Positions 1 through 38,832 of a stretch of 39,636 bases of DNA are shown one piece after another; within the stretch, counting starts at the first letter, position 1, and each line of letters begins with the position of its first letter. The stretch spans positions 1 to 39,636 of IMG/VR virus record IMGVR_UViG_3300047446_000269. One strand, 5' to 3'. The notes beneath the pieces are model-generated. The model ran no database searches. It had not been told where the DNA came from and was given only the letters and a program-made list of their open reading frames with translations. The position numbers and the translations under genes were made by a program. Source of the DNA: a virus.

Positions 1-1146
1 TTACGGCTGGTAAATATTCAGTGCCCGGCGGGTACGGCCTGAACTGAGGTAATCCGCGATATAATCTTGCGAAATCTCGCCGCTATAGCGCCCATCTTCG
101 TCCGTGATAGGCATCCACACCATATTGTGTTCGTAGAGTTTCGACAGCACGATACGCAGGTTATCTTCCGCACGCCCGGTCACGCGGAACGGGTGCAGCA
201 AATCAGCACACGAACCTGTGGCACCACGGGCTTCGCGACGTTTCACAAACCCCAATGGTTTTCCGTCACCGTCCACCACCGTAATTGAGCGCATATCGTT
301 GTCGTCCATGGTGCCGAATGCTTCCGGTAATGGCGTTGACGCTCGCGCGGTGATGGTCGGTTGCTGGTCAGTCACGTCACCGGCCTGCACCAGAAGCAGG
401 CGTTTTAGCGTGCGGTCCTGGCCGACAAACGAGCCAACAAATTCATTGGCCGGTTTAGCCAGCAGCTCATCGGGGCTGGCGCACTGCACGATTTTCCCCT
501 GGCGGAACACGGCGATACGGTCGCCCAGCTTCAGGGCTTCGTCGATATCGTGACTGACCAGCATCACAGTCTTCTTCAACTGGCGCTGCATTTCCAGAAA
601 CTCGTTCTGGATAACTTCACGGTTGATAGGGTCGACCGCGCCAAAAGGTTCATCCATCAGCAGCACCGGAGGGTCCGCCGCCAGCGCACGGATCACGCCA
701 ATACGCTGTTGCTGGCCACCGGACATTTCACGCGGGTATCGGTTCAGGAAGCGGTTCGGGTCGAGTGCCACCATGCTCATTAATTCGCTGGCACGCTCTT
801 TACAACGGGCTTTATCCCAACCCAACATGCGGGGCACGACGGTGATGTTTTCTTCAATCGTCATGTTCGGGAACAGGCCGATTTGCTGGATAACATAGCC
901 AATATTGCGGCGCAGCGTCACGGTATCCAGCTCGTTAGTGTTTTTACCGTTAATCAGGATATTGCCGCCGGTCGGCGCAATCAGGCGGTTGATCATTTTC
1001 AGCGTGGTGGTTTTACCGCAGCCGGAAGGGCCGAGCAGTACACACATTTCGCCTTCCGGCACATTGAGGCTGACGTTATCAACGGCGTTAAAGGTTTGGC
1101 CGTTCTTTTGAACGAACTGTTTTGTGAGATTTTCCAGTTTAATCAT
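1..1146 (-). CDS. osmV: Osmoprotectant ABC transporter ATP-binding protein OsmV
   Basis: Cytoplasmic ATPase of a binding-protein-dependent importer for glycine betaine and related osmoprotectants. The 381-residue protein has a Walker A motif (GPSGCGKTT, about residues 39-47), the ABC signature (SGGQQQR, about 143-149), Walker B (LLMDEP) and a switch histidine (SHD). Residues from about 250 to the end form a CBS-pair-like regulatory region. The length fits Salmonella OsmV of the OsmU system better than the shorter E. coli YehX. AAGGGG precedes the ATG. In relatives osmV is the first gene of osmVWXY, so the rest of the operon should lie beyond the left edge. The prophage integrase ends only 164 bp upstream, so phage DNA sits in or near the native promoter region. 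Confidence 0.93.
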   Translation of the reverse strand: MIKLENLTKQFVQKNGQTFNAVDNVSLNVPEGEMCVLLGPSGCGKTTTLKMINRLIAPTGGNILINGKNTNELDTVTLRRNIGYVIQQIGLFPNMTIEENITVVPRMLGWDKARCKERASELMSMVALDPNRFLNRYPREMSGGQQQRIGVIRALAADPPVLLMDEPFGAVDPINREVIQNEFLEMQRQLKKTVMLVSHDIDEALKLGDRIAVFRQGKIVQCASPDELLAKPANEFVGSFVGQDRTLKRLLLVQAGDVTDQQPTITARASTPLPEAFGTMDDNDMRSITVVDGDGKPLGFVKRREARGATGSCADLLHPFRVTGRAEDNLRIVLSKLYEHNMVWMPITDEDGRYSGEISQDYIADYLSSGRTRRALNIYQP

Positions 1147-3194: not shown

Positions 3195-4831
3195 CAGTCG
3201 CTCTCCCTGTCGGCTGCATTGGCGAGGGTGATGGCCATCTCTGCAATTTCATCGAAAACACTGAAGCAGGCTGGGTTAGCGCATAACCCCTGAATGGCTG
3301 CAATAGTTAGCTGCTGGCGATAGGTAAGAGCAGGTGAAGTGGTGGCGTGAACTGCCTGAGCATGAATCTCTTCTGGCTCCGGGCGAGGCTTTACCTTAAT
3401 AACGGGTTTCTCGATGACTGCCGGTGCGGGTAGTTCGGTACGCAATTCAGTAATAGTATCCAGGGCAACTATCTGGCGCTTTGCTTCATTATCAGACCAT
3501 GCATCGAGATTGCTGGTGGTCACGTGATGAATTTCTTCATCGCTGAGATCAGGAGATAGGCAGAATTCAGTGGCTGCGATGTCAGCAAGAAGAAGAGGGA
3601 ACACTTCCGGGATAAGATGGCCGGTGCAGGTAACGACCCCTTCAGCTTCTTCTTTCCCCATCACGTCAGTGCAGCCAGAAAGCAGGGCGTTAATAGCGTG
3701 GCTGATTTCAATCTCCCGGTCGCTCATCAACACGCGGGTATCTTCAGAACCTACTTCCTGCGTCGGTTCGCCATCACCAGCTGCATTTTCTGCCAACTTG
3801 CCATCTTCTGAGCTGTCAGTGACCAGAACATCTGCTGTGTTCTGCGAGCTCTGTTCGTTCTCATCTTCTTCCTCTGCATCACCATTCACACCCAGATAAT
3901 CTAGGATGGCGCGGCGGTATGACACGATCCCTTTATCTTCGTTAAAATCAACAGAGCGGATGGCGTTGCCAAGCAGTCTGTCGCTGAAATTTTCAAGAGT
4001 AGGCTGTATGTAGGTAAGAGCCTTATGGGCACGGATAAATGCGGGGTATTCGCACTTTCGCTGGTTCGTTGCGTCGGACAGTATTTCGGGAGTTACCTCG
4101 TCAAGCTCGACGGTAGGGGCGTTAATGGCGACTGCAATTTTTTGCTCAAAGGTCAGCGAAACATATTCATGTACGGTGGCGGGCTTTACTTCCGCTGGCG
4201 TGTCGCGGTTTTCTGGCGGTGTATCCAGCCACTTTTCCATGAATTTCAGGTAGTCAGGCCATTTTGCTGTCGATTTTACTTTTTCGCGTGCATCCGCCAT
4301 TAGCGCTACCTGACGATCAGGGAATAATGCCAAAACGCGAGGAAGGCGGGTGATGGCCTCGTACATCTCACGTTCTGGGCTGGTTTCATCATCGTTGGTC
4401 AGGTCAATGGCAAGACTGTACTCAGCCTTGGTAATGTTTTCTGTGCGACCAAACAGAACCAGCAATGCTGCGCGAGGGTTGGTAGAACATTTAGAGATCT
4501 CAATGAATTCAGGTTCTCCTGTAATTGCAGTGTGTGGCGTTTCAACTTCCGTATTTGCAGGGATAAACTCAATATTTCCGGTTTCTTTATTCCAGACAAA
4601 ATCAGTCGACCATTCATTAAGTGCTGGCCTATCATTTCCTGTACTGTCTTCAATGATTTTTCCGTCAAAATAATGCTCGGCAATCTCAGGGTATTCCTGA
4701 AAGAATGCACCAGTAATAATTGCCCCTGCTGCCTTTTTATTTGGTGCGCTTTTCAGAACTGAAAGTGTTTGTAAGTTAAGTTTGTCTGCCGGTGCTTTTT
4801 TAGGAATAAAACAGCCAATAAATGATTTCAT
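3194..4831 (-). CDS. RecE-like protein lacking the exonuclease domain
   Basis: 545-residue protein resembling the long N-terminal region of exonuclease VIII (RecE). RecE of the Rac prophage is 866 residues, with nuclease activity confined to about the last 260. Here the protein ends just after a segment resembling the pre-nuclease part (TYRQQLTIAAIQGLCANPA); no RecB-type nuclease motifs (such as the D-x-K-T strand) are present, and no recT/bet-like annealing gene follows. Acidic, Ser/Glu-rich linkers occupy about 310-370. The frame is open over its whole length with GAGG upstream, so it is a stable truncated form, not a decayed frame. A function for the non-nuclease part is unknown to me. Confidence 0.7.
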   Translation of the reverse strand: MKSFIGCFIPKKAPADKLNLQTLSVLKSAPNKKAAGAIITGAFFQEYPEIAEHYFDGKIIEDSTGNDRPALNEWSTDFVWNKETGNIEFIPANTEVETPHTAITGEPEFIEISKCSTNPRAALLVLFGRTENITKAEYSLAIDLTNDDETSPEREMYEAITRLPRVLALFPDRQVALMADAREKVKSTAKWPDYLKFMEKWLDTPPENRDTPAEVKPATVHEYVSLTFEQKIAVAINAPTVELDEVTPEILSDATNQRKCEYPAFIRAHKALTYIQPTLENFSDRLLGNAIRSVDFNEDKGIVSYRRAILDYLGVNGDAEEEDENEQSSQNTADVLVTDSSEDGKLAENAAGDGEPTQEVGSEDTRVLMSDREIEISHAINALLSGCTDVMGKEEAEGVVTCTGHLIPEVFPLLLADIAATEFCLSPDLSDEEIHHVTTSNLDAWSDNEAKRQIVALDTITELRTELPAPAVIEKPVIKVKPRPEPEEIHAQAVHATTSPALTYRQQLTIAAIQGLCANPACFSVFDEIAEMAITLANAADRESD

Positions 4832-6034: not shown

Positions 6035-6409
6035 TTATTTATTTTCGAAATACTTACCGTAGAATTTTTTTAGTTCATCCAGCCGCATTTCAAATACAGC
6101 GATCATGTTGGCTCGCTCAACACTAGGAAATTCCCTGTAGAGCTTAACTAGTCTCAATTCTTCATCAGTAAATTGCTCGGTTCCCGGTGATTCTTCGCCT
6201 AGCAACCAAGCTAATGAAACACCAGTGTGCCCAGCCAGCTTAGAAGCCGCCTCTTTACTGATGCTTCCCCGCTTGAACCAGCCATTGACAGAGGCTCTGC
6301 TGACGCCAGTAATTCTCGCCATATCAGCTTTGGAGACATGCTTAGTCTCTATGATTTCGTTTAAACGCTGTGTTACCAGCGGGAGTTCAGAGTTTTTATC
6401 GTTTTCCAT
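6035..6409 (-). CDS. Prophage repressor, short form without peptidase domain
   Basis: 124-residue XRE-type helix-turn-helix protein that should maintain lysogeny by binding the operators at PL and PR. The DNA-binding domain spans about residues 10-70 (SKADMARITGVSRASVNGWFKRG as helix-turn-helix). The C-terminal part is a short helical segment, probably for dimerisation. The S24 self-cleavage domain found in lambda CI and P22 C2 is absent, so RecA-stimulated autocleavage is not expected. The gene is divergent from the Cro-like gene. No ribosome binding site precedes the ATG, and the TATAAT box is only six bases upstream, consistent with a leaderless mRNA. Confidence 0.85.
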   Translation of the reverse strand: MENDKNSELPLVTQRLNEIIETKHVSKADMARITGVSRASVNGWFKRGSISKEAASKLAGHTGVSLAWLLGEESPGTEQFTDEELRLVKLYREFPSVERANMIAVFEMRLDELKKFYGKYFENK

Positions 6410-6525: not shown

Positions 6526-6783
6526 GTGACCAAAATTCAAACCGGCCTTGATAAAGCGATCTGCGCATTCGGTAGTCAGAGAAAGCTTGCTCAGGCACTT
6601 GGAATTAGCGCTCCAACCTTGAACCGGGTTGTAAAAAAGTACTCTGGCAATATTCCACCCAAATATTTGGCGATGATTTACGAGTTAACGGGTGTAACAC
6701 CACATGAGGTTCGCCCTGATTTATATCCAAACCCAACTGATTGCCTGCCTACGAGTAATCAGAATATCACTCCAGCCTCTTAA
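6526..6783 (+). CDS. Cro-like regulator (YdaS family)
   Basis: 85-residue helix-turn-helix protein, first gene of the rightward operon, occupying the place of cro. The YdaS-like domain covers about residues 5-65 (AFGSQRKLAQALGISAPTLNRVVKK as helix-turn-helix, with a C-terminal YELTGVTPHEVRPD signature). GTG is the start codon, with AGGAGA five bases upstream. YdaS proteins were first listed as antitoxins, but later work treats YdaS/YdaT of CP-933P as Cro- and CII-type regulators, which suits this position. It likely shares the operators at PL and PR with the repressor. Confidence 0.85.
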   Translation: MTKIQTGLDKAICAFGSQRKLAQALGISAPTLNRVVKKYSGNIPPKYLAMIYELTGVTPHEVRPDLYPNPTDCLPTSNQNITPAS

Positions 6784-6793
6784 GGACTGATTT

Positions 6794-7249
6794 ATGGAAA
6801 TCAAAACTCTGCATATCGAGCTTGAAGCATGGGCTGCAAAGAAGGGCTGGAAGTACGTTGTCGAGCTGATTACAAGGCATCAACAGGGTGAGCTGCTTGA
6901 GACTCTTGATGACTTGGTTGATGGCGATGAATTCGCTCGCCGGGTCCATAACAACAAGCAGCGCATCCAACGAGCATTCGAAGGAACGTCAAAGAAACAC
7001 CAACTGCATGCCGCATTGCTGGCACCGGCAGTTCGCGCAGCCATCGATGCAGAACTTGCTATGCAAAAAGACGAACAGCACAGAGTCGCTGCTTCCAGCA
7101 AGGAACACTCAGAGGTTATTTGCGCCGTGCTAACCGGGGCGCCACTGGCCGTTATTCAGAAAGAAGCCATTGAAGCAATTAACTCGATCGCCGTGTTTGT
7201 TCCTGGTCTTGTTGTGCAGTTTGCACATGTTGGCCAGCAGCTGCTGTAG
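6794..7249 (+). CDS. YdaT-like (CII-equivalent) transcription regulator
   Basis: 151-residue protein matching the YdaT pattern: an MEIKTLHIE start, a KKGWKYVVELIT helix, then NNKQRIQRAFEG, equivalent to the DNA-contacting region of YdaT. Originally called a toxin, YdaT of the CP-933P prophage has been described as a functional counterpart of CII. The gene follows the YdaS-like gene after 10 bp, the standard ydaS-ydaT order, so it most likely helps choose between lysis and lysogeny. Toxicity on overproduction is possible. Confidence 0.75.
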   Translation: MEIKTLHIELEAWAAKKGWKYVVELITRHQQGELLETLDDLVDGDEFARRVHNNKQRIQRAFEGTSKKHQLHAALLAPAVRAAIDAELAMQKDEQHRVAASSKEHSEVICAVLTGAPLAVIQKEAIEAINSIAVFVPGLVVQFAHVGQQLL

Positions 7250-10413: not shown

Positions 10414-10836
10414 ATGGAATTTTTATACAGAAATGATATTGATAATTACGAAATACAGCAGTGCCCTCCTTTGAATGCACAGCCTGTATCTATCCTCGCA
10501 TGGAGATGGACTTTCGAACCTTATACAGCCAACTGTTTTTCGCCACTAGGCAAAGTGAATCCCAAAAGGATACTCAGCCCTACTATTACTGACAAATGTT
10601 CATGCTGGGGCTTATCTATGTATTCTACTCAAGATAAAGCGGAAAGTGTATTCTCTGAGATAGAGAAGAATTTCAAAAAAGCAAGGAAAACCATAGGTAC
10701 CCACGTCTCTAAAGGGAACTTAGAACCTACAGATGGTGTAATAACTGAAATTGAAGATAACGGTCACTTTGACTTTCATCCATATACTGGAGTTGATATC
10801 AAATTTAAGTTTGAAGTCGTAAGGTGCATTCCATGA
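10414..10836 (+). CDS. Hypothetical protein, first gene of an AT-rich cassette
   Basis: 140-residue protein of unknown function. Notable are Trp/Phe-rich segments (ILAWRWTFEPYT), a CSCWGLSMYST block and a KTIGTHVSKGNLEPTDGV stretch leading to an acidic, aromatic-rich end. I have the impression of a family of short proteins sharing a W-G-L-S core and a K-T-x-G-T-H motif, but cannot name it. Its frame overlaps the downstream gene, so the two should be translated together. Codon use is AT-rich and unlike the neighbouring phage genes, which indicates separate acquisition. It may be the partner or antidote of the larger protein. Confidence 0.75.
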   Translation: MEFLYRNDIDNYEIQQCPPLNAQPVSILAWRWTFEPYTANCFSPLGKVNPKRILSPTITDKCSCWGLSMYSTQDKAESVFSEIEKNFKKARKTIGTHVSKGNLEPTDGVITEIEDNGHFDFHPYTGVDIKFKFEVVRCIP

Positions 10837-11903
10837 TTAAGCTAAAAGGCAAGCCAATTAGTACAGGGGATATGCCTAAGTTCAACTGGTATGCAGACCT
10901 GATCGACTTTGACGGCCCGTTACTGAGTCTGTTTAAGGGAGAAAGGAACACTGATGCTTTATATATGTGGGTAGATAATGACACGCGTAGAAACAGATGG
11001 TGTATTATCCCTGTAGATAGAGTTAATTTAAATAATTACCTTCAGAAAAAAACCTCACTAAAAGAAGTTGTGCTTTCAGCCAAAAAAGTGATTTTTTTTA
11101 ATATGTTTGAAGGGGTTAATGGATTAACAAAAAGATCTTGTATTGAAGTAGCTAGGGATGACTTCCCGGCTGATTATTTTCCCGATGAAGACGCTTACCT
11201 TAGCGACATGATTGCAACGCCGGAGGCCGTCAGATTAAGAAATGAAATAACTGAAAATTATATGCTTGGAATTGACAATGAACTTTATACAGACGATTTG
11301 TCAACGATCCCTTATATTTTTCAGCAACTATATTCCTTCCACTACGCGCTTGAACACTTAGCAGTAGAATCTGTAAAGAATAGAGTCGTTTCCTTACTTT
11401 CCTCTTGGACTGGAGGAGCATCAGCAGTAAATATTTTCACTGGATTAAGAAACCTTATTCCAACAATTCACCGGCCACAGGTAAATGCGATCAAGTACAA
11501 TTCACCTGGGTATATAGAACTAAATCTTCTACCTAAGATAGCAAAAAGTGTTGAGTTTTCTATGGATCGCTCCCTTGCTAATTTCAGATTTTACAGGATG
11601 GAGAGCTTCTATAATGGAACATATAAATATCTGAAAGAAAATGATATTTCTGGATTTGATTATGATGGCGTGGACTTGAAAACCATCATAAATGACGATA
11701 CCGAAAAACATTTGGCTAGACGCGTTTCTATATTTATGAAATTGCTTGGGTGGTCGCAATACCAAAGCACTTTTGACCAGTTAGGAGCGCATCCTCTCCA
11801 ACAACTCAGAACCATTTTGGCGTACTACCGACGCTTCAAAAAGTTAAGATACTATGTAGAGCATGATAATCTGTCGATCGGAACATCAAAAATAAAAGAC
11901 TGA
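10833..11903 (+). CDS. DUF6575-like protein, second gene of the AT-rich cassette
   Basis: About 356 residues. The N-terminal 100 residues (LIDFDGPLLSLF, then ALYMWVDND, RWCIIPVDRVNLNNYL and KEVVL) resemble, from memory, the DUF6575 module of proteins with unknown role. The remainder is mainly helical with no enzyme motif I recognise; a hydrophobic helix near 170-215 is not clearly a membrane segment. I prefer ATG 10833 (MIKLKGK) to 10824; either way it overlaps the first gene. A strong terminator follows at 11931-11961. The two-gene structure, foreign composition and moron-type position suggest an accessory function such as superinfection exclusion or defence; this is inference. Confidence 0.75.
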   Translation: MIKLKGKPISTGDMPKFNWYADLIDFDGPLLSLFKGERNTDALYMWVDNDTRRNRWCIIPVDRVNLNNYLQKKTSLKEVVLSAKKVIFFNMFEGVNGLTKRSCIEVARDDFPADYFPDEDAYLSDMIATPEAVRLRNEITENYMLGIDNELYTDDLSTIPYIFQQLYSFHYALEHLAVESVKNRVVSLLSSWTGGASAVNIFTGLRNLIPTIHRPQVNAIKYNSPGYIELNLLPKIAKSVEFSMDRSLANFRFYRMESFYNGTYKYLKENDISGFDYDGVDLKTIINDDTEKHLARRVSIFMKLLGWSQYQSTFDQLGAHPLQQLRTILAYYRRFKKLRYYVEHDNLSIGTSKIKD

Positions 11904-11930
11904 CGCTGAAAACAAAGCCTATGTCAGAGA

Positions 11931-11961
11931 ACAGTCCTCTAGTTAATAAGGGCTGTTTTTT
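11931..11961 (+). terminator. Rho-independent terminator of the AT-rich cassette
   Basis: ACAGTCCT (11931-11938) pairs with AGGGCTGT (11949-11956), with one G-T pair, followed by six T. It lies 27 bp after the cassette's last stop codon, closing the two-gene unit. Confidence 0.8.
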
Positions 11962-12261
11962 ATACTGGCATAGCGCTTGTGAACTGCTCTCCATGAGCCA
12001 ATACAAACTGATCTTAGCAGGGTCCGCTTTTGGCACACAACAGTCATTTAGGTCGACACTGCTTCGTATCATTGCGTGGCATAAAATGAAGAAGTGCCGA
12101 CATTTAACTTTTTACTCTCAACAAATTACCCGCCTGACTTCGGTTAACAATAACGATCGAATTTTACTCAAATGTAGCGAAAAAGATTATTCAAATCAGC
12201 TGGATAAATAGCCTTGCATAGATACATGGTTTTTGTGCATACTTGGCAAAAGCAAATAACA
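11962..12261. other. Gene-free spacer with a long imperfect inverted repeat
   Basis: No gene I would support; a 96-codon frame crossing 11921-12211 overlaps the terminator and lacks a ribosome binding site. A 14-base inverted repeat with two mismatches (12052-12065 and 12088-12101, loop 22) could form a stem-loop in RNA. The rest shows nothing recognisable. Confidence 0.4.
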
Positions 12262-12277
12262 CTGTGGTTATATACAG
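12243..12277 (+). promoter_or_regulatory. LexA box and promoter before a small gene
   Basis: CTGT-N8-ACAG at 12262-12277 (CTGTGGTTATATACAG) is a canonical SOS box with an AT-rich centre on its right half. A -35-like TTGGCA lies at 12243-12248, and the box covers the expected -10 (around 12266-12273), so LexA would block the promoter until DNA damage. The first gene downstream starts at 12348. Confidence 0.75.
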
Positions 12278-12347
12278 TTATTGTCTATGTTTTCAGCAGT
12301 TTTGAACATTGGGTTCTGGGCCACAATTAGTTCATAAGGGGTATTGA

Positions 12348-12551
12348 GTGAAAGTGAATGAAGAATTACCTGCTACGGGTTACGCGGTTATTCGTTGTCA
12401 GGATTGTGCTGTAGTGGCGAGATTTGATTGCTTCCCAGACAAGGGGCGCATCCTGATGTACCGCAACATGGACGTGTACTCATTCATGCCACTGAGCGAC
12501 AAGCAAATCATCATCTCGCCGGAATCACATAAAGAACTTATCAGTGCATAG
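12348..12551 (+). CDS. SOS-controlled small protein, candidate antirepressor
   Basis: 67-residue protein starting with GTG, with AAGGGG (12336-12341) six bases upstream. It has a Cys pair (RCQDCAVVARFDCF) and a short aromatic middle (MYRNMDVYSFMPL); no family was recognised, and it is not DinI. A LexA box lies 70 bp upstream. Gifsy- and Fels-2-type prophages of Salmonella use small LexA-controlled antirepressors against repressors that cannot cleave themselves. The repressor here lacks a peptidase domain, so this gene is the natural candidate for that role. The role is inference from context; the gene itself is well supported by its signals. Confidence 0.65.
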   Translation: MKVNEELPATGYAVIRCQDCAVVARFDCFPDKGRILMYRNMDVYSFMPLSDKQIIISPESHKELISA

Positions 12552-12617
12552 CGGCTTAAAGTAACTTAAAATAGCAGCTGGGCTGAACACCCTGAATTCT
12601 GTTGCGCCATTGGAGAC

Positions 12618-12719
12618 ATGATGGCGCACCCACTCAAATTTGTACCCCGCATTACACTGACGAATCTACTCGCCAGCAATTCTCTGCATTCATTATTTAC
12701 CGCTGGTGGTGAGCAATGA
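12618..12719 (+). CDS. Possible 33-residue protein coupled to the Ref-like gene
   Basis: Short frame starting at ATG 12618 or 12621 (the latter has GGAG at 12612-12615, five bases away), with its TGA overlapping the next ATG (ATGA). The product starts MMAHPLKFVPRITLTNLLAS. A stem TGCGCCAT/ATGGCGCA (12603-12610 and 12621-12628) would place the ribosome binding site in a ten-base loop and the start codon in the stem. It could be a real small protein or a leader that couples translation to the nuclease gene. Confidence 0.45.
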   Translation: MMAHPLKFVPRITLTNLLASNSLHSLFTAGGEQ

Positions 12720-13006
12720 AGAAGGCAGAACGCGAGCACCTATCCCGAGTTGCATCCCTTGGCTGTGTCGTATGCCGCAATCTGGATCTTGGCGAAACGC
12801 CGGCTGAAATCCATCACTGCAGTTCCGGTACCGGTCTTTCTGTCCGGGCAGACAATTATCATGTCATTCCTCTTTGTCATATCCATCATCGCACTGGCAG
12901 CAATGGTCTTGCCATTCATGCAGGGCGGCAGACATGGGAACAGAACTTCGGTACCGAACTGGATTTACTGAACCAAGTTAATACTGAATTGGGGGTGAGA
13001 GCATGA
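12716..13006 (+). CDS. Ref/YbcO-like HNH-type recombination nuclease
   Basis: 96-residue protein resembling the globular nuclease domain of P1 Ref (recombination enhancement function), a RecA-dependent DNA endonuclease. It has CVVC near residue 17, an EIHHCSSG motif, and LCHIHHRTG followed by a conserved W-E-Q-x-F-G end, all typical of this HNH-like family with zinc-binding Cys/His. Similar genes lie before rusA and Q in lambdoid prophages, as here. It overlaps RusA by ATGA. A recombination or replication-repair role is likely. Confidence 0.75.
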   Translation: MKKAEREHLSRVASLGCVVCRNLDLGETPAEIHHCSSGTGLSVRADNYHVIPLCHIHHRTGSNGLAIHAGRQTWEQNFGTELDLLNQVNTELGVRA

Positions 13007-13356
13007 TTTACGACATCATCCCAATCGGTAAGCCACGTATGACCCGCGCCGATAAGTGGAAGCAACGCCCGGCAGTGATGCGCTATCGCGCATTCTGCGA
13101 TGAAGCCCACTTACGCAAAGTTCATCTTCCGGAATCTGGCGCGCACGTAACCTTTGTAATGCCAATGCCGCCGAGCTGGAGCAAGAAGAAGCAGGAACAG
13201 ATGAATGGCAAGCCGCATCAGTCAAAACCCGATTGCGACAACATGCTCAAGGCATTGATGGACGCCCTCTTTGATGACGATTCGAGTATCTGGGATTGCC
13301 GCATAACCAAGGTATGGGGTGAGAAAGGGCAAATCATCATCAGGGAGTCCGTATGA
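13003..13356 (+). CDS. rusA: RusA Holliday junction resolvase
   Basis: 117-residue homodimeric endonuclease that resolves Holliday junctions during phage recombination. The RusA signature is clear: IPIGKPRMTRADKW near the start, then KPDCDNMLKALMDAL with Asp77 and Asp79 and a following Asp cluster (91-93), matching the metal-binding aspartates of the family. Length is normal. It overlaps both neighbours by ATGA, forming a Ref-RusA-Q cluster. Confidence 0.93.
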   Translation: MIYDIIPIGKPRMTRADKWKQRPAVMRYRAFCDEAHLRKVHLPESGAHVTFVMPMPPSWSKKKQEQMNGKPHQSKPDCDNMLKALMDALFDDDSSIWDCRITKVWGEKGQIIIRESV

Positions 13357-14042
13357 ACCAGCAATATCTGCAATACGTCCGCGAAGAACTCATGGTGGCC
13401 ACTGCCGATTTAAGCGGGGCAACGAAAGGGCAGCTGGTAGCGTTCGCCGAGAATGCGCAGTTCGATACCGGCCGATATAAGCGCAAGCGTCGGCGCATAC
13501 TCGACGAGGCAACGGGCAAAATGATTACACTTCCAGGCGACCCGGTACCGGGCCAACAATCGAGAGCGAAAGGCTCATCCATAGCACTCGTTCAGCCTGT
13601 TGAGTTTCGCACCGCATCATGGCGCCGTGCGCTGGCTACTCTCGATAAACACGAACACTCCTGGCTGTCATGGTGCTATGCCGGGGATTTGTCTTTTGCT
13701 CATCAGGTGGCGATAACTGAATGGGCATGGGATGAATTTAAAGCGACGCTGGGAAGCAAGAAGATAGCGGGCAAAACGGTGAAGCGATTGCAGGCGTTAG
13801 TCTGGCTGGCAGCGCAGGATGTCAGGAGTGAATTGAAAGGTGGGGAAGGCTATCAGCATGCTGACCTCGCAGCGTTAGTTCAAATAAGTAAATCCACCTG
13901 GTCAGAAACCTTCGCAGACCACTGGCGGGCAATGAAAGCCTTGTATGGTCGACTGGATAGCGACGCTCTTTGTGCAACGGCGAGAACACGATCACAACAA
14001 AAGTCGACAAATTTATGTGTAAGTCTTGCAAAACCGAACTAA
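13353..14042 (+). CDS. Antitermination protein Q-like
   Basis: 229-residue protein at the position of Q, the regulator that lets RNA polymerase read through terminators into late genes. It is helical, with Trp-rich segments (HSWLSWCYAG, ITEWAWDEF) and a C-terminal region (LVQISKSTWSETFADHWRAM) that looks like a helix-turn-helix; this pattern fits large Q proteins of lambdoid phages in my memory. A strong terminator (14115-14137) lies just downstream, where a Q-dependent tR' would be expected. It overlaps rusA by ATGA. Confidence 0.75.
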   Translation: MNQQYLQYVREELMVATADLSGATKGQLVAFAENAQFDTGRYKRKRRRILDEATGKMITLPGDPVPGQQSRAKGSSIALVQPVEFRTASWRRALATLDKHEHSWLSWCYAGDLSFAHQVAITEWAWDEFKATLGSKKIAGKTVKRLQALVWLAAQDVRSELKGGEGYQHADLAALVQISKSTWSETFADHWRAMKALYGRLDSDALCATARTRSQQKSTNLCVSLAKPN

Positions 14043-14114
14043 ATGGGCGATATTTAAGCCTAATTTGATATTGTGCCATCAGTGCATTTGGTGGCAGTAA
14101 GCAAATTACCTATG

Positions 14115-14137
14115 AAACCCGCCGAGTGCGGGTTTTT
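14115..14137 (+). terminator. Terminator after Q (candidate tR')
   Basis: AACCCGC (14116-14122) pairs with GCGGGTT (14128-14134), with five T at 14133-14137. It lies 73 bp beyond the Q stop codon and ahead of the lysis genes, the position of the Q-responsive terminator in lambda. A hairpin (TGCCA/TGGCA, about 14074-14096) precedes it. Confidence 0.75.
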
Positions 14138-14163
14138 GCTTTTCAAGCAAGATGCCATATAGT
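14136..14163 (+). promoter_or_regulatory. Possible promoter of the 14195 gene
   Basis: TTGCTT (14136-14141) and TATAGT (14158-14163) are separated by 16 bp. The element starts at the end of the preceding terminator and lies 31 bp before an ATG, which would make the following gene an independently expressed unit. Confidence 0.4.
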
Positions 14164-14194
14164 TTGCTATCACTCGATTAAGTGCTGGTGAAAT

Positions 14195-14452
14195 ATGGAA
14201 AACCAATTGTGGGAAAAGTACGTAAAGTTAGAAGAAGAGAATCCTGAGCTGTTTAATCTCGAAGAAATCACCATCAACCTTAACGCGTTGAAGGAAGTAC
14301 TTTCTAATGGCAATGGTCCAGCTTACGAATTGTTCGATAGCATGAATGCGATTAGAGAAGATGAGTCTGAGCAGATGATGGGATTCAGAGGGGTTCCTCG
14401 AGTGTTTCTCACGCAGCTAATCCTGCTAAGTAACGAGTATCGAATAAAGTAG
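14195..14452 (+). CDS. Hypothetical acidic protein (moron-like)
   Basis: 85-residue acidic protein with Glu-rich helices (KYVKLEEENPELFNLEEI) and no recognised family. It sits between two terminators with a plausible own promoter, inside the gap between Q and the holins, a frequent site for cargo genes. It is convergent with the membrane-protein gene at 14493-15083. Composition is AT-rich compared with the head and tail genes. Confidence 0.65.
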   Translation: MENQLWEKYVKLEEENPELFNLEEITINLNALKEVLSNGNGPAYELFDSMNAIREDESEQMMGFRGVPRVFLTQLILLSNEYRIK

Positions 14453-15140: not shown

Positions 15141-15536
15141 ATGTCTGAACCACTTACCGTTGCTGCGGGTGTGGCTGCTGGAACAACGGGGGTGACATTT
15201 GCCGCTGTGTTCCCTGAAGCTACGCCTGCAGTGATGCTCTGCGCCTTAGCTGGTGCGGCAATGTACATCCTCACAGCAGAAGAGCATAAGACCTGGAAGC
15301 AAATCATCTTCGCGCTCATCTCGTTTATCGGCGGCGTGTTTTTTGCTGGGACGGCTTCCGAAATTATCGCTGGCTTACTGAATGCAGCACTTGGCGCTCT
15401 GTCGCCTCCGGTGCATGTCAAAGTGTCGCCAGCTATCGGTGCGCTGGTGGCATCAACCATTTCAGTAGTTGTTCTTCTGCGCATTCTCTCAAAATCAAAG
15501 ACCGCCAGCCCCAAGCTGGAGGGAGGTGGTGAATGA
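15141..15536 (+). CDS. Putative holin
   Basis: 131-residue hydrophobic protein with about four membrane spans (near 5-24, 28-45, 54-80 and 95-113) and a short charged tail. It is the first of two small membrane genes directly before the endolysin, so a holin role (timed pore formation in the inner membrane) is the best reading. I start at ATG 15141; the open frame extends further upstream but without support. The stop overlaps the next gene (ATGA). Confidence 0.75.
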   Translation: MSEPLTVAAGVAAGTTGVTFAAVFPEATPAVMLCALAGAAMYILTAEEHKTWKQIIFALISFIGGVFFAGTASEIIAGLLNAALGALSPPVHVKVSPAIGALVASTISVVVLLRILSKSKTASPKLEGGGE

Positions 15537-37097: not shown

Positions 37098-37117
37098 TAC
37101 TGTATATAAATACAGTT
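37098..37117 (+). promoter_or_regulatory. LexA box of umuDC
   Basis: TACTGTATATAAATACAGTT is a near-perfect SOS box (CTGT at 37100-37103, ACAG at 37112-37115). It lies 19 bp before the umuD start codon, so expression should depend on LexA release. Confidence 0.92.
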
Positions 37118-37135
37118 ATTATTTGTGGCTATCTT

Positions 37136-37555
37136 ATGAATCTGATCAAACCCGTATTTTTGCGAGAGGTTGTAACCGTTCCTCTGTTCAGCGACCCGGT
37201 AAAGTGTGGCTTCCCGTCGCCCGCGCAGGACTATGTGGAAGAGCGTGTAGACATTGCTGAGTTGATCGTACCTCACCCAAGCAGTACCTATTTCGTGCGG
37301 GCGTCAGGGGACTCAATGATCGACGGGGGGATCAGCGACGGTGATTTACTGGCCGTGGATTGTTCTCGCACCGCCAGGCATAACGATGTTGTGATTGCCT
37401 CGGTTGATGGTGAATTTACCGTTAAACGCCTCCAGCTTTACCCGACCATCCAGCTTAACCCGATGAACACGGCGTACGCCCCAATTCTGATTGGCAGTGA
37501 GGGCACGCTCAATATTCTGGGCGTGGTCACGTTCGTCATTAAATCGATGGGCTGA
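37136..37555 (+). CDS. umuD: UmuD, self-processing subunit of DNA polymerase V
   Basis: 139-residue S24 peptidase. RecA-stimulated self-cleavage at Cys24-Gly25 (KCGFPSP) gives UmuD', which activates UmuC for translesion synthesis. The catalytic pair Ser60 ([10 protein letters not shown]) and Lys97 (FTVKRL) has the same numbering as E. coli UmuD. It lies directly behind a LexA box and two bases before umuC. The copy may be prophage cargo or host; it follows the tail fibre assembly gene without a visible att site. Confidence 0.95.
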
Positions 37556-37557
37556 CC

Positions 37558-38832
37558 ATGTTTGCCCTGGTAGATGTCAATTCGTTCTATGCCAGTTGCG
37601 AAACGGTATTCAGGCCAGATTTGCAGGGCAGGCCGGTAGTCGTGCTCTCGAATAATGATGGCTGCGTTATTGCCCGGAGTGCAGAAGCGAAAGCCATTGG
37701 CGTCAAAATGGGCGACCCGTATTTCAAGCAAAAGGAGTTGTTCCGGAGGTTCGGTGTTGTCTGCTTCAGCTCCAATTACGAGTTGTACGCCGATATGTCT
37801 GACCGGGTGATGACCACGCTCGAGGAAATGTCCCCGCGCTGTGAAATTTATAGTATCGATGAAGCATTTTGTGACCTGACTGGCGTGCGGAATTGTCGCA
37901 ACCTTGAGGATTTTGGTAGGGAAATTCGGGAGACTATTTTGCTGCGAACGCGTCTCACCGTGGGCGTTGGGGTGGCGCAAACCAAGACTTTAGCCAAGCT
38001 CGCTAACCATGCAGCCAAGAAATGGCAACGGCAAACGGGTGGTGTGGTGGACCTGACGAATTTAGAAAAGCAGCGGAAGCTGATGGCGTATTTCCCGGTT
38101 GATGAAGTCTGGGGCGTTGGCCGCCGTATCTCCAAAAAGCTCGAAGCCATGGGAATTAAAACGGTTCTCCAGCTGGCTGACACGGATATCCGGTTTATCA
38201 GGAAGCACTTCAACGTAGTGCTCGAGCGCACCGTTCGGGAGCTGCGCGGTGAACCCTGCCTCGGCCTGGAAGAGTTTGCACCAACCAAACAGGAAATCGT
38301 CTGCTCACGCTCATTCGGTGACCGGGTGACTGAATACGAACAAATGCGCCAGGCTATCTGTAGTTATGCGGCGCGCGCTGGGGAGAAACTACGGGGTGAA
38401 CATCAGTTCTGCCGCTATATCTCTGTATTCATCAAAACATCACCGTTCGCGCTGAATGAGCCATATTACGGGAGCCAAGGGGCTGTGAAATTAATGACGC
38501 CAACGCAGGACACCCGCGACATTATTGCTGCGGCAATGCGCTGTCTCGATAAAATCTGGAAGGATGGGTACCGCTATCAGAAAGCCGGGATTATGCTGGG
38601 TGACTTCTTCAGCCAGGGTGTGGCTCAACTCAATTTGTTTGACGACAACGCGCCGCGACAAAACAGCGCTGCGTTGATGGAAGTGCTGGACCATCTCAAC
38701 CACAAGAACGGGAAAGGGGCGCTGTATTTTGCAGGGCAGGGTATCCAGCAACAGTGGCAGATGAAACGGGACATGCTCTCGCCGCGCTACACGACGAGAT
38801 GGTCAGATTTGCTGGTGGTGAAGGTGAGATAG
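37558..38832 (+). CDS. umuC: UmuC, catalytic subunit of error-prone DNA polymerase V
   Basis: 424-residue Y-family polymerase. The active-site carboxylates are Asp6 (ALVDVNSFY) and Asp101-Glu102 ([13 protein letters not shown]). The thumb, little-finger and C-terminal regions are complete, with a QLNLF beta-clamp motif near 357-361. It forms an operon with umuD and should give SOS mutagenesis to the lysogen. No convincing terminator follows; a short hairpin AGCTAC/GTAGCT (38871-38885) lies between the convergent genes. Confidence 0.96.

Follow-up and report, generated by a model that had tools for sequence, protein, structure and literature searches.

A LexA-box-preceded small gene of a lambdoid prophage probably encodes a GfoA/FsoA-type antirepressor of a short repressor without a peptidase domain

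Prophage induction by LexA-controlled antirepressors is a strategy already known from the Salmonella Gifsy prophages. GfoA (Gifsy-1) and GftA (Gifsy-2) are controlled by LexA, bind their repressors in stable complexes and bring about induction; GfoA and FsoA (Fels-1) are experimentally proven antirepressors, and in the Gifsy prophages a terminator-like hairpin lies ahead of the LexA box (PMC3121763). The gene order dinI-antirepressor-irsA is typical, although not strictly defining, for the GfoA type. FsoA differs from these proteins in being encoded in the left operon, under the phage repressor and not under LexA, and in acting on the Gifsy-2 repressor (PMC3121763). Likened by description and not by sequence are Rem of the Qin prophage, a small antirepressor found by a search from GfoA/FsoA, whose target DicA is a short repressor and whose inducing signal is not known (PMC10448788), and Tum of coliphage 186/Fels-2, which is also a LexA-controlled antirepressor but is about twice the size of the 67-residue protein described below and has a DinI-like half (PMC3121763).

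The window, i.e., the whole stretch of 39,636 nt analysed (IMGVR_UViG_3300047446_000269), was a lambdoid prophage, and contigs of Buttiauxella gaviniae were its nearest host sequences among those compared. We propose, with a probability of about 0.8, that LexA directly controls the gene at 12348-12551 and that its product is a small antirepressor belonging to the GfoA/FsoA superfamily, which would induce the prophage through the repressor encoded at 6035-6409. The features concerned were:

6035-6409, minus strand: presumed target, a short HTH repressor of the DicA/GtgR type with a C-terminal helical hairpin and no S24 peptidase domain (Pfam, GtgR similarity, AlphaFold2)
6526-6783, plus strand: divergent Cro-like (YdaS-type) regulator (YdaS_toxin, E 7.9e-11; phrog_35 repressor)
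6794-7249, plus strand: CII-like/YdaT-type activator (phrog_163, E 2e-22)
about 11926-11961, plus strand: terminator-like hairpin (RNA fold -14.7 kcal/mol, z -3.6; T run on the 3' side)
12260-12279, core 12262-12277: LexA (SOS) box (exact CTGTN8ACAG; 16.3 bits in the matrix of relatives)
12348-12551, plus strand: probable GfoA/FsoA-superfamily antirepressor of 67 aa, starting with GTG (phrog_1813; GfoA-only profile; AlphaFold2 model)
12716-13006, plus strand: DUF968/Ref-like HNH nuclease, the next gene downstream of the antirepressor (PF16786, PF06147, phrog_1588)
13003-13356, plus strand: RusA-like Holliday junction resolvase (phrog_140, E 1.4e-29)
13353-14042, plus strand: late antiterminator Q, the last gene ahead of the terminator at 14114-14136 (phrog_304, E 1.3e-94)

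The canonical box reported by the initial annotation was readily recovered as CTGTGGTTATATACAG, about 70 bp ahead of the GTG gene. Exact matches to CTGTN8ACAG occurred three times in the window (the copy at 4441 was not box-like), so that the motif alone is weak evidence. A 20-bp weight matrix was therefore relevant here, derived from 26 distinct boxes found in relatives, the set excluding the window and the sequences closest to it. With this matrix, the box at 12262 ranked second in the window, after that of the umuDC operon (about 37098; 29.8 bits) and far ahead of the third site (3.2 bits), whereas only 0.015 sites as strong are expected by chance per 39.6-kb window; this indicated that the box is real and that the window holds two real LexA boxes, the one at 12262 and that of umuDC. 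All the training boxes presented higher scores (18.2-32.3 bits, median 29.5). The Buttiauxella copy of the box, CTGTGATTATATACAG, had one base changed inside it. The box directly preceded the gene, with no dinI in between; the promoter over which it had been placed was not recovered, as no sigma-70 consensus promoter was found in 11850-14300.

No terminator was predicted from 12551 to the Q gene, the first one being that at 14114-14136, and hence the LexA transcript could also cover the genes of the Ref-like nuclease, RusA and Q. This arrangement would also suit a role of the box in the SOS expression of these three downstream genes, bypassing the repressor and leaving the small protein as incidental. 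Such a role is very unlikely to be the main one, since the association of the box with the antirepressor family persists where the downstream genes differ (irsA/DUF1367, NinG, RusA), and the core of the small protein is conserved across the family. A 33-codon ORF (12618-12719, MMAHPLKF...) was present between the antirepressor and nuclease genes, overlapping the start of the latter as ATGA.

The 67-residue protein, for which no family had been recognised in the initial annotation, gave a match to phrog_1813 (E 2.8e-20) and a weak one to phrog_340, two families to which PHROGs assigns no function, and can now be placed in the Gifsy-type antirepressor family; neither Pfam nor NCBIfam presented a family for it. 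For the comparison with proven antirepressors, GftA was located in Gifsy-2 by means of the published cloning primers, GfoA was recovered from IMG/VR contigs with the published forward primer, and FsoA was read from the published interval of Fels-1, where we picked the frame for its likeness to GftA, which makes this last identification our own. GfoA matched phrog_340 (7.6e-21) and phrog_1813 (3.5e-11), FsoA matched phrog_340 (2e-24), and GftA constituted a separate family, phrog_4847. The families phrog_1813 and phrog_340 were linked, both being matched by 29 of 31 relatives. The comparison with GfoA-type proteins that the initial annotation had called for gave a clear outcome: with a GfoA-only profile, the window gene was the sole match in the window (E 5e-8; next window ORF, 0.85), and FsoA (1.8e-7) and GftA (6.8e-4) were found as well. 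Homologues in SPN3UB, Chris1, and pAEv1818 directly follow dinI, which is the gftA/gfoA slot. Membership of the 67-residue protein in the GfoA/FsoA superfamily is thus well supported by sequence comparison.

The locus shares with those of GfoA and GfhA (Gifsy-1 and Gifsy-3; PMC3121763) a homologous protein, an upstream LexA box, a non-ATG start, a short target repressor class without peptidase domain, and a terminator-like hairpin ahead of the box. In contrast, identity between the proteins was about 30%, the window protein was devoid of the C-terminal G-Y and tail, no dinI preceded it, and the Ref-like nuclease occupied the place where Gifsy has irsA; the dinI-antirepressor-irsA order was therefore absent from the window. 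With FsoA the protein has in common the superfamily (phrog_340, linked to phrog_1813) and a similar size. With GftA (PMC3121763) it shares the slot, a probable LexA control, a GUG start and an end shortly after the C-terminal helix, but the link between both proteins appeared only through GfoA-type profiles. A DinI-like modulator of RecA could also be envisaged from the LexA-controlled position and from dinI being a neighbour in most relatives. This identity is hardly credible and was rejected: a phage DinI query (phmmer) found no DinI-like gene in the window, the relatives carry a separate dinI alongside, and the protein is homologous to GfoA and FsoA.

The gene itself was as initially annotated, with 67 codons and a good ribosome binding site (AAGGGG) just upstream of the GTG, a start which agrees with that of an IMG/VR relative (L001) and of Citrobacter phage Chris1. 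The AlphaFold2 model displayed four strands followed by a C-terminal helix (beta-beta-beta-beta-alpha; pLDDT 85). A PDB search with the sequence gave no match at E 10, and searches with the model found no significant similarity in PDB or among viral models, where only weak VapB-like rows appeared, and no match in VIA-align. The residues R16, D19, R34, Y38, and P48, invariant in the core of the family, were all present, whereas the protein stopped short of the near-invariant C-terminal G-Y and of the 10-15 residue tail. This counts against the main reading, as the gene could be a weakened allele. Taken further, the protein would be a GfoA-family member that no longer works, with its C-terminal end lost and its box decayed, and the prophage would not be induced through it; a box scoring under those of all relatives and the lack of a consensus promoter point in the same direction. 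We consider this unlikely. The B. gaviniae copy kept the same end and encoded a 100% identical protein, with two synonymous differences and no other coding change, active GftA also lacks the Y and tail (PMC3121763), a homologue from Actinobacillus (L009) ends similarly early, and the invariant core is retained. On the basis of these early ends and of the purely synonymous changes in Buttiauxella, a working short form seems to be favoured over a weakened allele.

Of 392 genomes from the family of the host, 43 contained phrog_1813; 40 loci were examined for box, dinI and repressor. An exact LexA box was found up to 460 bp upstream in 37 of the 40 loci, where 0.4 were expected (the rest of these regions had a background of 0.009 per 460 bp). 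The gene dinI was present in 28 of the 40, none being detected in 9 of the 37 boxed relatives, and a homologous short repressor (126-161 aa) appeared in 35 of the 40, on the other strand and 5-13 kb upstream. All the 37 repressors scanned, that of the window included, displayed HTH_3 and none an S24 peptidase (0/37). In a control sample of 35 prophage regions sharing the same Q family and chosen without regard to the antirepressor, this gene was found in 9 of the 15 regions with a short repressor and in none of the 10 with a long one (Fisher P = 0.003). Long repressors were those of at least 200 aa, a class set by length, and an S24 domain was not established for every one of them.

The repressor at 6035-6409, flanked by the YdaS-type Cro gene and the CII/YdaT-like gene, corresponded to its previous description: 124 residues with a single HTH domain, only HTH_3/Phage_CI_repr being found by the Pfam scan, and no S24 or self-cleavage peptidase domain. 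It resembled GtgR (E 3e-9) and the DicA-like repressor of pAEv1818 (E 2e-16), and in its AlphaFold2 model a linker connected the HTH domain to two helices (82-93 and 96-122; pLDDT 84). Its closest relatives were from Buttiauxella (57-58% identical), and no antirepressor of the family was found in the prophage regions around them, which weighs against the main reading together with the weakest box of the set and the missing consensus promoter. These empty regions would rather suit an antirepressor acting mainly on the repressor of a different prophage co-resident in the host instead of its own. Crosstalk of this kind is documented by the action of FsoA mentioned above and by GfoA and GfhA, which act on each other's repressors (PMC3121763). 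In addition, the B. gaviniae genome with the identical antirepressor holds a related repressor that matches that of the window only in the C part (45%), the HTH part being different; as both genes are on separate contigs, we infer their pairing. Nevertheless, another prophage as the main target seems rather unlikely, given that the window's own repressor belongs to the short, non-cleavable class which needs such a partner and that family members regularly co-occur in the prophage with short repressors of this type. The role originally assigned to the gene, a LexA-controlled antirepressor for a non-cleavable repressor, is strongly supported, as far as sequence goes, by the homology to GfoA/FsoA and by the co-occurring LexA boxes and short repressors.

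According to this role, RecA would trigger the self-cleavage of LexA upon DNA damage, and the box at 12262 would be freed. The 67-residue protein would then be made, a LexA control suggested by the box and its conservation in relatives, and would bind the 124-residue repressor, as expected from its homology with GfoA and GftA, probably at the C-terminal helical hairpin. The repressor would be released from its operators and, by the same homology, the prophage induced; the same transcript may extend into the Ref-like nuclease, RusA, and Q. Considering both the SOS switch sequence and the membership in a family of repressor-inactivating proteins, the small gene most likely acts as the alarm by which damage to the host DNA awakens the prophage.

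Divergence of the antirepressor tracked that of the C-terminal part of the repressor, with a rho of 0.39 over 38 loci and of 0.53 over the 28 that have dinI. For these 28 loci the partial correlation was 0.60 after removing DinI and HTH, in contrast with 0.09 between antirepressor and repressor HTH part and 0.05 between the adjacent DinI and the repressor C part. The correlation comes mostly from one split between two clades and is not significant inside each of them, so we regard it as a lead only. It could mean that, family-wide, the antirepressor docks on the C-terminal helical hairpin of the repressor and not on its DNA-binding domain, and that prophages able to awaken each other may be read from that domain; we give this tentative rule somewhat less than an even chance. 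If true, the window gene would be a minimal version, without dinI and C-terminal tail, and the relation of the antirepressor type to the C-terminal domain of the repressor would provide a testable rule for crosstalk among co-resident prophages. The results also suggest a function for phrog_1813, a widespread phage family, and point to Gifsy-type induction by LexA-controlled antirepressors across many prophages of Enterobacteriaceae; phages of Aeromonas and Actinobacillus have homologues as well.

Some loci of the survey departed from the common pattern. Family members in L089, L112, and Salmonella phage ZC-S1_prp (L008) had a different N-terminus (MLKFVIYGDTVKN...), and control may differ in L089 and L112, where no exact LexA box was found upstream. 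A control prophage with a short repressor and no GfoA-family match (L132) nonetheless had, a few kb downstream (at 15440 in reading orientation), the strong LexA box TACTGTAAATGTATACAGTA, which perhaps precedes another antirepressor family. The B. gaviniae genome contained a second antirepressor-like gene with its own LexA box (contig C48, L113, about 365-628, minus strand); its first part matched the window protein (59% over 51 residues) and its second half differed, which suggests a recombinant antirepressor.

Elsewhere in the window, a gene pair at 10414-11903, which separates the replication genes from the LexA unit, matched PD-T4-10, a two-gene system of anti-phage defence (E 9.9e-60 for A and 9.8e-152 for B). 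The umuDC operon of the prophage (37098-38832) had its own very strong LexA box, TACTGTATATAAATACAGTT, and its UmuD-like protein carried a Peptidase_S24 domain; in the Buttiauxella prophage region L172, umuDC was likewise located behind a strong box.
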